Virus record (IMG/VR): IMGVR_UViG_3300044613_001728
Span: 1 to 35,664 of that record
DNA from: a virus
Direction: 5' to 3' (one strand)
DNA length: 35,664 nucleotides
Below, piece by piece: positions 1,627-34,455 of the stretch. How positions within the stretch are numbered: position 1 is the first letter of the stretch; each line of letters begins with the position of its first letter. A model generated the notes under the pieces. The model made no database searches. It was not told the origin of the DNA and saw only the letters and a list, made by a program, of their open reading frames with translations. A program made the translations under genes and the position numbers.

Positions 1627-1654
1627 TTGACCAATAGATTGTATGTGTTATTAT
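1627..1654 (+). promoter_or_regulatory. Sigma70-like promoter, TTGACC-N16-TATTAT
   Basis: TTGACC at 1627-1632 and TATTAT at 1649-1654 are separated by 16 bases. It shares TTGACCAA and the 16-base spacer with the promoter at 8477. The GMP reductase ATG at 1663 lies 8 bases past the -10 box, so the transcript would be nearly leaderless. Confidence 0.55.
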
Positions 1655-1662
1655 TGTCGTTC

Positions 1663-2700
1663 ATGATTGTAAATTACGAATCAAAATTAGATTATTCAGA
1701 CGCACTAATTGTACCGAGACTTTCGGATGTAAAGTCTCGTAAAGATGTAAATCTTGAAGTTGGTACTACTTTTAGATCTGGGTCTTGTTGGACTGGTGTG
1801 CCTATTATGGCAGCAAACATGTCTACAGTTGGAACACAAGAAATGGCTCTTGTATTGTCAGAATACAAGATGATTACATGTCTTAAGAAAGGTGGTGAGT
1901 ATTATGTTACTTTTGCCACTACTTATCCCGATAAAGAAAAATATGTTTCGTTGACTCTTGGTTTGGATGCCGAGAGTAAGTTGTTTGTTGATAATGCGAC
2001 AATTAATGATCCAACTTTTGTTTGTGTAGATGTTGCAAATGGTTACATGACAGAATTTCATAACTTTGTAAAGAAAGTGAGACAGAAATGGCCGAAGTCA
2101 ATATTGATTGCAGGGAATATAGTAACCCCAGAGGGGGTCGTGGCATTGTCAGATGCTGGAGTCGATCTAGTAAAAGTGGGAATAGGATCGGGGTCGATGT
2201 GCCTGACACGCCGAGTAGCAGGAGTGGGGTATCCCCAACTATCGGCGGTCATAGAGTGTGTGGAAACCGCAACAGCGTTAGGTATTGGGATCGTATCTGA
2301 TGGAGGAATTGTACATCCCGGCGATTTTGCTAAGTCTTTTGTGGCTGGGGCTGCATTTGTTATGGCTGGAGGTGCATTTGCAGGTCATGACGAGTGTGGT
2401 GGAGAAATTCGTCACTCCAATAATAACGCATCACTCACGATGCTTCATTATGGTATGTCCAGTAAAACGGCAAATGAAAGATACAACGGCGGACTTAAGG
2501 ATTACCGTGCTTCCGAGGGCCGCACTGTGGAAGTACCTTATCGTGGATCTGTACATCATACCGTTCAAGAAATTCTTGGTGGATTGCGCTCTGCTTGTTC
2601 GTATGTGGGTGCTTTTAATTTGCCTGATCTGTATTCGCGTGGTACAATGGTTAAGGTCAATCGTACTATAAACAACATTTTTGAGAATCACGAAATATGA
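1663..2700 (+). CDS. guaC: GMP reductase
   Basis: 345 aa, close to the 347 aa of E. coli GuaC. GMP reductase converts GMP to IMP and ammonia with NADPH. The IMPDH/GMPR barrel is complete. The catalytic-loop cysteine is C180 in GIGSGSMCLTR, followed by GVGYPQLSAV, the GMPR-type continuation. Then come SDGG and PGDFAKSF, and a C-terminal YGMSS...YRASEGRTVEVPYRG...EILGGLR block that is specific to GMP reductases and absent from IMP dehydrogenase. No CBS domain is present. The ATG at 1663 is preferred over an upstream TTG at 1627, because the family N-terminus begins here and the TTG lies in the promoter. The stop overlaps the next start (ATGA), so the two genes are translationally coupled. Base composition is richer in G than in the late genes, consistent with an early/middle gene. 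Confidence 0.92.
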   Translation: MIVNYESKLDYSDALIVPRLSDVKSRKDVNLEVGTTFRSGSCWTGVPIMAANMSTVGTQEMALVLSEYKMITCLKKGGEYYVTFATTYPDKEKYVSLTLGLDAESKLFVDNATINDPTFVCVDVANGYMTEFHNFVKKVRQKWPKSILIAGNIVTPEGVVALSDAGVDLVKVGIGSGSMCLTRRVAGVGYPQLSAVIECVETATALGIGIVSDGGIVHPGDFAKSFVAGAAFVMAGGAFAGHDECGGEIRHSNNNASLTMLHYGMSSKTANERYNGGLKDYRASEGRTVEVPYRGSVHHTVQEILGGLRSACSYVGAFNLPDLYSRGTMVKVNRTINNIFENHEI

Positions 2701-8771: not shown

Positions 8772-8792
8772 AATTTAAAAAAGTTTTATCAA

Positions 8793-12274: not shown

Positions 12275-12757
12275 TTATCCCCAAGAAGGTCTGCCAGTAG
12301 ATCTTCCCAATCTATCAAAAAACATAATGTTTTTTTGCATGATTGATACTCTTGATTCTGTCAATGCCGTATCGTTTTTAACTAAATCTTGTTTTCTTCC
12401 TATTTGGGCATTTAATTCATGTAGTGCAGAATGAATGGTATTCATTTCTTTGTATAGATTTTCTTGGCTAGACGTAGCACTAGATAACGATGCTTGGGCT
12501 TGTTCGGCTTGTGAAACAATCGGCCCTGTTTGAAGTAATATTGAATCCATTTTACCAGACATTGGAGCCATAACTTCCCTATCTGGAATAGTTGTAGTTC
12601 TGGGATCAATAGTTATTTTTTCTGGTTCGGGTGTTTTTATTTCAGATAATTCAATTTTATAAGGTGAATCGCTTACCTTTACATCGGTATTGATGTATTG
12701 ATTAAACCTTGATTGTTCTGCTTGAAAATCTATATTGAATGTATTGTCTTCTGTCAT
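12275..12757 (-). CDS. Hypothetical coiled-coil protein, 160 aa
   Basis: Not recognised. The N-terminal half is Pro/Asp/Ile-rich and probably extended. The C-terminal half (residues 75-140) is a long helical, Gln/Ser/Ala/Leu-rich stretch likely to form a coiled coil. It starts 3 bases after the stop of the -1-frame extension and ends the operon. In lambda-like phages the gene after the G/GT chaperone is the tape measure. This one is much too short for that role, but an interaction with the hub or tape measure is plausible by context. Confidence 0.65.
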   Translation of the reverse strand: MTEDNTFNIDFQAEQSRFNQYINTDVKVSDSPYKIELSEIKTPEPEKITIDPRTTTIPDREVMAPMSGKMDSILLQTGPIVSQAEQAQASLSSATSSQENLYKEMNTIHSALHELNAQIGRKQDLVKNDTALTESRVSIMQKNIMFFDRLGRSTGRPSWG

Positions 12758-12760
12758 AGG

Positions 12761-12955
12761 TTACATCATTGTAAATGGGTTATTATTTTGAGTTTGCTTT
12801 TGTGCTTCTATATGATCTAAAAGTAAATTAATATAAATTTCTCTTTCCCATACCATCATGTTTTCAATATCAGTTATGTTCCAAGAAAAAGAATTTACTA
12901 ATTTAAAATTAGATTTATAGTAATCGGTAAGATCAAAATATCTTACCGAAAGATA
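12761..12955 (-). CDS. -1 frame extension of the gp26-like protein (gp51/T-like domain)
   Basis: 64 codons open in the -1 frame relative to gp26-like, entered at the T7 run (12955-12961) and ending at TAA 12763-12761. It fills the only gap in a tightly packed operon. The peptide has a helical ENMMVWEREIYINLLLDHIEAQ core. The first internal ATGs (12862 and 12859) have no Shine-Dalgarno and would give only about 32-33 residues, so frameshift expression is favoured. The fusion would be 282 aa (218 + 64). It is analogous to the T part of lambda GT. In T4, genes 26 and 51 are adjacent, just before the hub and tape-measure genes. Confidence 0.7.
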   Translation of the reverse strand, partial: YLSVRYFDLTDYYKSNFKLVNSFSWNITDIENMMVWEREIYINLLLDHIEAQKQTQNNNPFTMM

Positions 12956-12961
12956 AAAAAA
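12925..12961 (-). promoter_or_regulatory. Programmed -1 ribosomal frameshift signal
   Basis: Read on the minus strand: a T7 slippery heptamer (12961-12955) placed as T TTT TTT in the gp26-like frame, a 6-base spacer ATCTTT (12954-12949), then a perfect 9-bp hairpin CGGTAAGAT / ATCTTACCG (12948-12925) with a 6-base loop. The zero-frame TAA lies inside the 5' arm. All three canonical elements are present in the right phase and spacing. Confidence 0.8.
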
Positions 12962-13608
12962 TCTAATAACCCACTTACCTCCTTTTCTGATCCATCAGTT
13001 AATGTTATTGAGGTAGTGAGTTTGGGTTGATCTTGAATAAATTTATCCAATTCTGACAATACTGATATTGGTAAATTGTTCATTATTTCTTTTATTTCAT
13101 CTGGAATATATTTTTTAAAATCATATATCTCATTCTTCACAATAATTTTTTTAATACAAGATTGTTGAAAATCGTGTTTTTCAAAAGAATTGAGTTCCAT
13201 TAAATCTTTTAATGTTGGTGATTCCAGCTCAATTACAATATTATTGTTTATATTTAATATTTTATTTTGCAATGTGTTTACACATTTTATTTCATTTATG
13301 TTCAATTTATATTTTGCATTTTCATAAATGATAGAAATGATTTCATCAATACTTTTTGATCTGATTTGCAAAAACAAATATTCAGCATCAGTTATATGAA
13401 GTTGTTTTGGTTCAACACCTTCACAATTATTTTTTAGTATTTCATATAATGCAGTCAGTGCTAGTTTTTTATTGTTTTCTTGTAAAACAATTGCTAAATT
13501 TTTTGCATCTTTTACTTTAAAAGGAGAAAAAGATACTTTTAATTTACTGACAGGTAAAATTGTTTCATATTTTGGAAAATATGTTTTTAGTTCTTCAATC
13601 AAATTCAT
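12943..13608 (-). CDS. 26: gp26-like baseplate hub assembly protein (likely tail assembly chaperone)
   Basis: 221 aa (T4 gp26: 208). The N-terminal pattern LPVSKLKVSFSPFKVKDAKNLAIVLQ (residues 18-43), followed by a helical EILKNNCEG segment, matches the T4 gp26/baseplate-protein family, in which a K-F-x-P-F-x-V-K motif and an acidic or Asn-rich helix precede a conserved Cys. A slippery T7 and a hairpin at the 3' end would send a fraction of ribosomes into a 64-codon -1 extension. It follows a tube-fold gene by 3 bases, the same order as tube-chaperone in other tailed phages. No own promoter is seen; it is transcribed from the late box at 14598. Confidence 0.75.
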   Translation of the reverse strand: MNLIEELKTYFPKYETILPVSKLKVSFSPFKVKDAKNLAIVLQENNKKLALTALYEILKNNCEGVEPKQLHITDAEYLFLQIRSKSIDEIISIIYENAKYKLNINEIKCVNTLQNKILNINNNIVIELESPTLKDLMELNSFEKHDFQQSCIKKIIVKNEIYDFKKYIPDEIKEIMNNLPISVLSELDKFIQDQPKLTTSITLTDGSEKEVSGLLDFFIFR

Positions 13609-13611
13609 ATA

Positions 13612-14172
13612 TTAAACACTTTCATGTTTGAAATCTCTATAATTAAAAACAACGCTATAACGCATATAAGGATCTGGAGCAATGCTATTTGGTTTTATTG
13701 GAAGTGTTTCTACTGGCATTACTTCGTTAAAAGTAAATCTGGACACTGTATTTCCGTTTAAATCTAGTAAATTCAATACTACTTGGCAATTTTTTACAAC
13801 AGTATCATAATACCCTAATCTAAATGGAGTATTGAAGGTACCTACAGAATAACCACCACTATAGATTAAATTAAACCAGTCGTTCATAAACAACATGATT
13901 TTATTATCTCCAGTTACTGGAAACGTTACTCCAAATCCTTGTTCAAATCTTTGTCTGCGTGGAATCAATCTTCCAATACCATAACCATTTAAATTATCTG
14001 ATACTGTATCGATTGCTCGTTTATTTAGTTGAAACTCATCCACAACATATTCGGTATCTCTAAATGAAGAATTGGGAGCATTTACAAAAGACATAGAATA
14101 TCTATTCGGTCTCTGAACACCCTTGTGTTGTGAAAAATAATCTTTTAGACTGTTTATTGTATTATTAAGCAT
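13612..14172 (-). CDS. Tube-fold protein (gp19/gp54-like), 186 aa
   Basis: The start is taken as the ATG at 14172, which overlaps the gp4-like stop by 8 bases; an upstream TTG is less likely. The N-terminal RPNRYSMSFV opening, an FNEVMPVETLPI segment near residue 150 and a C-terminal RYSVVFNYRDF strand follow the gp19 tail-tube pattern also seen in the two gp19 genes here. Its place beside gp4-like and gp26-like, and opposite the gp48-like gene, favours a gp54-like tube initiator or another specialised tube ring. Which ring it forms is inference. Confidence 0.65.
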   Translation of the reverse strand: MLNNTINSLKDYFSQHKGVQRPNRYSMSFVNAPNSSFRDTEYVVDEFQLNKRAIDTVSDNLNGYGIGRLIPRRQRFEQGFGVTFPVTGDNKIMLFMNDWFNLIYSGGYSVGTFNTPFRLGYYDTVVKNCQVVLNLLDLNGNTVSRFTFNEVMPVETLPIKPNSIAPDPYMRYSVVFNYRDFKHESV

Positions 14173-14584
14173 TGGCAAATAGCTCTTTTTCTGTTAAAAT
14201 TTTAAATATCATATTGTATTTTTCGCAATATGCTTTGGCGGCTTTCCATTTGGCGCTATTCACCGCCCATGTAATGCGTTCCTTTTTTGATGCATTTTCC
14301 TTCAAAAGGGTTTGCTTTTTTGGTTTTACTTCAATCATCCATGTTTCTATTTTACCATTTATTTTAATCTGAACGGTAAAATCTGGTATGTAATTTCTTA
14401 TTTTATTATCAATTGGATTGTGGTATGGCACCATCATTTCTTCAAAAGACCATTTTACCACATTTTCATTTAGATCACAAAATTTACAAACACTTCTTTC
14501 CCATAAAGAACGACAGTTTATGGAATCAGAATCTCCCACATATTTGCCTTTGTTGACTGGTTTATATTTAGTTTTATAGGCCAT
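14165..14584 (-). CDS. 4: Head completion nuclease-fold protein (gp4-like)
   Basis: 139 aa (T4 gp4: 150). Opens with KYKPVNKGKYVGDSDSI and SLWERSVCKFCD, as in T4-type gp4. The PD-(D/E)xK-like nuclease core is visible: IPDF (D68) and IEVKPKKQ (E85, K87). T4 gp4 acts in head completion after packaging, probably trimming or sealing the DNA end at the head-tail junction. First gene of the minus-strand operon. A CATAAATA box ends 6 bases before its ATG and no Shine-Dalgarno is present. Confidence 0.85.
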   Translation of the reverse strand: MAYKTKYKPVNKGKYVGDSDSINCRSLWERSVCKFCDLNENVVKWSFEEMMVPYHNPIDNKIRNYIPDFTVQIKINGKIETWMIEVKPKKQTLLKENASKKERITWAVNSAKWKAAKAYCEKYNMIFKILTEKELFANA

Positions 14585-27061: not shown

Positions 27062-27604
27062 ATGGCAAATAATACTATAAATGATTTTAAAGATGGGTTT
27101 AATGGTGGAACCAGAGCAAATAGGTTTCAAGTTTATGGTTTTTGGCCAGCAGGAGTCCTAAATCCAACAAATACTGAGATGAAAATAAAAATATTTGCAT
27201 CATCTCTTCCAAGCTCTACCCTTGGAACAATTTCTGTTCCTTATAGAGGTAGATCATATTATCTTCCCGGAGATAGACAATATTCTGTATGGTCTGTTGA
27301 TATATTTGATGATAGCGGTGACAGGACAATATGGAAAGCTTTCAATAAATGGAAAGAATTGATGGATGGTCATGAAACACATAGAGTAAGCAACAACGAT
27401 TATGCATATCGAGATCTTCAAAAAACTTGGACGATTGACCAATTAAATTTAAATGGCGATACCATTAGAACTCTTCAATTGCAGAAGTGTTGGCCAAGTG
27501 AAATAGGATCACTTACTTTAGACATGGGATCTACCGAACCATCTATATTTCGTGTAACAATGACTTTTGATTATCTTAAATTTATAACAGGACTCAATCA
27601 ATAA
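27062..27604 (+). CDS. 19: Tail tube protein (gp19), first copy
   Basis: 180 aa (T4: 163). The opening INDFKDGFNGGTRANRFQVYGFWP, the central VPYRGRSYYLPGDRQYSVWSVDIFDD and the C-terminal CWPSEIGSLTLDMGS match the gp19 tail tube fold. The stop overlaps the start of the second copy (TAATG). Most likely the main tube subunit or one of two tube isoforms. Confidence 0.9.
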   Translation: MANNTINDFKDGFNGGTRANRFQVYGFWPAGVLNPTNTEMKIKIFASSLPSSTLGTISVPYRGRSYYLPGDRQYSVWSVDIFDDSGDRTIWKAFNKWKELMDGHETHRVSNNDYAYRDLQKTWTIDQLNLNGDTIRTLQLQKCWPSEIGSLTLDMGSTEPSIFRVTMTFDYLKFITGLNQ

Positions 27605-34448: not shown

Positions 34449-34455
34449 ATAAATA
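34449..34455 (+). promoter_or_regulatory. Late-promoter-like box ATAAATA
   Basis: TAAATAAATAAT ending 5 bases before the ATG at 34461, with no ribosome site. Confidence 0.5.

Follow-up and report, generated by a model that had tools for sequence, protein, structure and literature searches.

A conserved frameshift in phage tail genes was reportedly described by Xu, Hendrix and Duda in 2004. The title of the work on T4-like tail chaperones by Vladimirov, Gautam and Davidson from 2022 stresses a mechanism other than frameshifting. T4 itself was named in a 2016 review as an exception to the conservation of the tail-gene frameshift (PMC5009743). Its gp51 is an essential chaperone of hub assembly and is absent from the virion (PMC3004832). 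A comparison of T4-like genomes in 2010 reported gp51 of cyanophages and marine vibriophage without the first ~200 residues, the cyanophage protein being truncated to about 20% of the T4 length (PMC3037559). According to the passages of PMC10885494 and PMC12846349 that cite the work, the tail assembly chaperones (TACs) of T4-like phages were identified by Vladimirov, Gautam and Davidson (Virology 2022, 566:9-15). In the same passages, some T4-like phages are stated to have two such genes, a short one and a long one (PMC10885494), and a paper of 2025 credits poly-T slippery sequences in T4-like TAC-N genes to the 2022 study (PMC12846349). An earlier note on the DNA analysed here had proposed gp26 and gp51 as the chaperone pair, a reading that is well supported but already known from the 2022 study. 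The same note had regarded a shift in T4-type gp26/gp51 as undescribed; this does not hold given the poly-T sites already credited, and frameshifting in T4-like phages is known at least in part.

Gene content and order of the window

The window, as the whole stretch of DNA analysed is called here, was a 35.7-kb record of an uncultivated virus (IMGVR_UViG_3300044613_001728). Its T4-type gene content comprised gp4, 13, 14, 15, 16, 17, 19, 20, 21, 22, 23 and 32. On the minus strand, a gp4-like gene was followed by a tail-tube-like gene, a gp26-like gene, a gap of 185 bp (12758-12942) and a gene of 160 aa. The gp4-like head-closure gene (14165-14584, minus strand) was the first of the operon and matched phrog_218 (2.3e-45); its gene order matched that of S-SSM5 and KVP40. 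The tail-tube-like gene (13612-14178, minus strand) lay directly upstream of the gp26-like gene, and its match to the phrog_45 tail tube (1.2e-8) agreed with the tube fold assigned to it in the earlier note. The 160-aa gene (12275-12757, minus strand) had no significant family match and held the position of the small genes after gp51 in HTVC008M and Cr30. No tape-measure gene was recognised within the 35.7-kb window. Searches against NCBIfam and Rfam gave no match, and a PDB sequence search gave no relevant match.

Two tail-tube paralogues were present in the window, both affiliated with phrog_45. The copy at 27062-27604 (plus strand) adjoined the sheath gene and the copy at 13612-14178 (minus strand) preceded the chaperone gene. 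A dehydrogenase-like gene at 1627-2700 (plus strand; phrog_9582, 1e-101) was a possible auxiliary metabolic gene. Heptamers with 9-bp hairpins within 10 nt downstream also occurred near 8776 (plus strand, AAAAAAG) and near 34449 (minus strand, TTTAAAA).

Predicted frameshift site and products

The gp26-like gene (12943-13608, minus strand) encoded in its zero frame a protein of 221 aa, the short form, as the equivalent of TAC-N and lambda gpG. It matched PF12322 T4_baseplate with 1.4e-29 and phrog_150 with 6.5e-31. The slippery heptamer T TTT TTT (12955-12961, minus strand) was located in X XXY YYZ phase within the overlap of both frames, where the zero frame read GAT TTT TTT ATC TTT CGG TAA. 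A spacer of 6 nt, ATCTTT (12949-12954), separated it from a candidate stimulatory hairpin (12925-12948, minus strand) with 9 perfect bp and a 6-nt loop. The hairpin was formed by the perfectly pairing arms CGGTAAGAT (12940-12948) and ATCTTACCG (12925-12933) around the loop ATTTTG, and the zero-frame stop TAA (12943-12945, minus strand) lay inside the 5' arm. All of these elements were present as the earlier note had described them. The same was true of the -1 frame, described there as open for 64 codons through the 185-bp gap: it ended with a stop at 12761-12763, 66 codons from the slip dipeptide FF and 64 after the heptamer. The resulting C-terminal domain of 66 aa (12761-12961 with stop, minus strand) was of gp51 type and T-like, and matched the baseplate hub assembly catalyst phrog_634 (E 7.1e-19). 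The predicted long form comprised residues 1-218 of the short form and the -1 extension, 282 aa altogether. The first in-frame ATG, GTG or TTG of the -1 peptide was its residue 35 and had no ribosome site, which bears out the earlier statement that internal ATGs lack one.

Based on 60 dinucleotide shuffles, a heptamer with a 9-bp hairpin was expected in 0.22 cases per window, counting any phase and either strand. Given the local composition, an open frame of 64 codons had a chance of p ~0.002. Homology was decisive for the reality of the -1 frame. The -1 peptide was encoded in 555 phage records, with alignments usually beginning at its first residues, FF, and nine diverse relatives aligned to that of the window without internal gaps over the shared region A2. 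Behind the slip, the differences to 16 close relatives fell on the first, second and third codon positions of the -1 frame in 126, 34 and 219 cases, hence 219 of 379 on the third. New stops in these relatives numbered 13 in the zero frame and 1 in the +1 frame, with none in the -1 frame. This pattern indicates coding selection on the -1 frame.

The short form and the -1 domain were modelled separately and not as a fused protein. The AlphaFold2 model of the short form had a pLDDT of 88.5. Its best fold match in the PDB, the HK97 tail assembly chaperone 2ob9, was non-significant (E 0.43, probability 0.57-0.60), and the significant matches were confined to viral models, of which many were of gp26 type. 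In the model of the -1 domain, two long helices were separated by a short one. Two products with a common N-terminal domain were seen at the sequence level only.

Conservation across related phages

Altogether, 195 loci were compared, including the window and annotated isolates. Some were overlapping stretches of one contig and were merged by clustering at 80% identity, resulting in 84 clusters. The gp51-type frame was the -1 frame relative to the gp26-type frame in 195/195 loci, and an in-phase T6N heptamer was present within the overlap in all of them. The check on conservation of run and frame that the earlier note had called for thus had a clear outcome. Among the 84 cluster representatives, the heptamer was TTTTTTC in 62, TTTTTTT in 18 and TTTTTTA in 4, and the zero-frame stop usually came one codon later. 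Only 2 of 76 other FF dipeptides in the same genes were encoded by T6; therefore, neither FF nor AT-richness accounted for the slippery run. T6N and an open gp51 frame were also found in seven of eight further isolates, including the DLP6 locus with 53% GC.

Synechococcus phage S-SCSM1 (locus L210, ~893-930), the exception among the further isolates, carried a T6C heptamer, and its -1 frame closed after the six residues FFRLES. There, the gp51 frame was reachable only in the other alternative frame, suggesting a local insertion or a sequencing error. Annotation of the extension varied. In S-CAM1 (L203, 914-1097) and ACG-2014d (L204, 914-1100) it was unannotated and the stretch from gp26 to the following gene left empty, and other records gave it as a separate gp51 of 40-60 aa.

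Downstream hairpin and upstream Shine-Dalgarno-like element

RNAfold added a tenth pair (the flanking T-A) to the hairpin of the window, which reached -13.5 kcal/mol with a z of -4.4 and was among the strongest of the lineages folded. Within the clade of the window, pairing was retained, with one-sided G-U changes in four lineages (L186, L187, L191 and L192). Folding potential was near background along the gene and peaked in the 45 nt that follow the heptamer. Downstream folding had a mean z of -2.0 against dinucleotide shuffles (controls -0.45) and of -2.15 against synonymous codons (controls -0.29). Across all lineages, covariation in fixed columns showed no clear helix because the stem shifts between lineages. 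Per-sequence folding, synonymous resampling and pair counts in one geometry were used instead, and compensatory variation of stem pairs was found in the cyanophage-type geometry. The stem position differed among deep lineages, and in some of these the hairpin was weak or absent (L098 and L153, MFE 0). Overall, the hairpin check named in the earlier note spoke for a downstream stimulatory structure that was weak in some deep lineages.

Beyond the features named in that note, an internal Shine-Dalgarno (SD)-like element, AAGGAGGT (12977-12984, minus strand), was found 15 nt upstream of the heptamer. Its duplex with the anti-SD was calculated at -12.9 kcal/mol, with p 0.013 against synonymous codons; the p-values on the stimulators are indicative only since the lineages are not independent. 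Anti-SD affinity showed a single strong peak at the element within 90 nt on either side. Upstream of the heptamer, at a distance of 9 nt, 46 of 84 lineages had GGAGGG, GAGGG or GAGG. The Glu codon at this position was GAG over GAA with an odds ratio of 4.8, and synonymous resampling gave a z of -1.1 compared to +0.06 for control blocks. According to PMC5009743, -1 shifting is stimulated by an SD located 9-14 nt upstream, E. coli dnaX being an example, and the 15 nt of the window were just beyond this range. The element is probably a 5' frameshift stimulator. With the heptamer and the stem-loop it would form a three-part cassette of the dnaX type, putative in the window with its spacing of 15 nt.

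T4 and other T-even phages as a natural control

The T-even control set comprised T4, 44RR, ZZ1, QL01, Kpn6N and a Krischvirus. In all six, gene 51 was separate and of full length and gene 26 had no T6 run; T4 gene 26 read TTC TTT at the slip position. The alternative frames checked in these six phages held no gp51-like extension of gene 26. T4 genes 26 and 51 were adjacent, as the earlier note had it, but were located on opposite strands. In T4 gp51, residues 1-201 made up an entire PF12322 domain, and a phrog_634 domain came after it. T4 gp51 aligned end to end with the marine fusion, and T4 gp26 aligned only with the first part of the fusion. For T4, the description of gp51 as a T-like domain must accordingly be replaced, since gp51 consists of an entire gp26-like protein to which the gp51 tail is added. 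The match of the T4 gene pair to the parts of the fusion suggests that the same two products arise by frameshift in marine phages and from duplicated genes in T-evens. No shift is used by T4 itself, with gp26 as the short form and gp51 as the long form from its own gene. The apparent truncation of cyanophage gp51 would then be explained, since what was annotated as its 'gene' is the -1 continuation of gene 26. The equivalence to T4 gp51 was thus obtained here together with the anatomy of the locus, its conservation, the coding selection and the conservation of the signals.

The Pseudotevenvirus Enterobacter phage EC-F2 (L199, 1201-2494) differed from T4 in that a long gp51-type gene was followed by a short gp26-like gene on the same strand. 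In Acinetobacter phage ZZ1 (L198, 1201-1955), gp51 matched in two pieces and was annotated as truncated, with a note that a CDS with an identical name overlaps it; this probably reflects an error in the frame or a further shift.

Proposed mechanism and alternative explanations

The locus is best read, with a probability of roughly 0.92, as a programmed -1 ribosomal frameshift that would yield two forms of the tail assembly chaperone from one mRNA. The joining of a gp26-like to a gp51-like part by such a shift, the core of the earlier note, is well supported by homology and by the register in 195/195 loci. That ribosomes shift here, how frequently, and what the products do in assembly we infer. 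Most ribosomes would end at the TAA and release the 221-aa short form. In a minority, the hairpin and probably also base pairing between 16S rRNA and the SD-like element would cause a pause; after slipping by one base in the -1 direction on T TTT TTT, these ribosomes would go on for 64 more residues and produce the long form of 282 aa. If lambda gpG/gpGT is a guide, the tape-measure protein would be coated by the short domain, tail-tube subunits would be recruited by the added helical domain, and neither form would be part of the virion. T-evens would reach the same end via two genes, 26 for the short and 51 for the long form. HTVC008M showed the order tube-type gene, gp26, gp51, small gene(s) and tape measure, and Cr30 the order gp26, gp51, small gene(s) and tape measure, as in lambda-type tail operons. 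Based on homology and gene context, the tail assembly chaperone role is well supported, and its mechanism is a prediction.

A role of the frameshift fusion in assembly of the baseplate hub, rather than as chaperone of tube and tape measure, would agree with the classical annotation of T4 gp51 as hub assembly chaperone (PMC3004832) and with the baseplate names in Pfam and PHROG. It is unlikely in view of the order of tube, gp26/51 and tape measure in relatives, the lambda-like two-product design and the published re-identification as TACs (Virology 2022, in the citing passages of PMC10885494 and PMC12846349). Even less probable is a gp51-type gene of its own, reached by translational coupling or by ribosomes that re-initiate downstream of the gp26 stop. 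Most GenBank records do annotate a separate short gp51, an ATG was present within 10 codons of the slip in 49 of 84 lineages, and intergenic SD elements can serve coupling (PMC5009743). However, none of the 49 early ATGs had an SD-like site, 20 lineages including the window had no ATG, GTG or TTG before residue 20, and the SD cores served no start codon in any of the 51 lineages with such a core. Re-initiation also leaves the invariant in-phase T6N unexplained, and T4 gp51 is a covalent long form.

Transcriptional slippage could produce mixed frames, as poly-T can make RNA polymerase slip, but runs of 9 have been described for this (PMC5009743) and most lineages had only T6 followed by C. The run began at the third codon position in 84/84 clusters, a phase relevant only to the ribosome, and with its spacer, hairpin and SD-like element the site carries signals for the ribosome; transcriptional slippage is accordingly very improbable. 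The likelihood of a sequencing or assembly error in the T7 that splits one continuous gene is negligible. Such errors are common in homopolymers, and in T4 the gp51 gene is one uninterrupted frame, but five other IMG/VR contigs showed the identical T7 and spacing, and the -1 register in 195/195 loci refuted such an error. The programmed -1 ribosomal frameshift remained the preferred explanation.

Going further, the frameshift of marine T4-like tail chaperones may use an unreported three-part signal of the dnaX type that tunes the ratio of short to long form, and T-evens may have duplicated the gene and then lost the slippery run. This combined proposal is tentative, with slightly less than even odds. 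What may be new here is the SD-like element, a testable detail on how the protein ratio may be set, as well as the loss of the slippery run from T-even phages. The tail-chaperone frameshift, long called missing from T4 (PMC5009743), would be the norm among the marine T4-like phages studied here, and annotation would be corrected for hundreds of records with a separate gp51 or none.

Comparison with known systems

The locus resembled lambda gpG/gpGT in its tail-gene context, in the fusion to a T domain and in a -1 shift close to where the short gene ends. It differed in having no recognisable sequence homology to lambda and a larger N domain in the long form. The slippery heptamer of lambda gpG/gpGT is also different from that of the window. 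The TAC locus of Pakpunavirus Adele shared the -1 shift, a conserved poly-T (GTTTTT) at the TAC-N end and a -1 frame that was open throughout; it belongs to another phage family, and the passages of PMC12846349 considered here mention no upstream SD. The E. coli dnaX cassette combines an internal SD, an X XXY YYZ heptamer and a stem-loop, the three parts also proposed for the window. It is located in an unrelated gene and has an A-run rather than a T-run; here, the shift would lead to the longer product, and the SD spacing of the window was 15 nt. Also close were the T4-like TACs gp26/gp51, which are of the same protein families and comprise a short form and a long form with a C-terminal domain. 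T4 has two genes on opposite strands and no shift, and the window represents an uncultivated marine clade in which the heptamer is TTTTTTT and not TTTTTTC.
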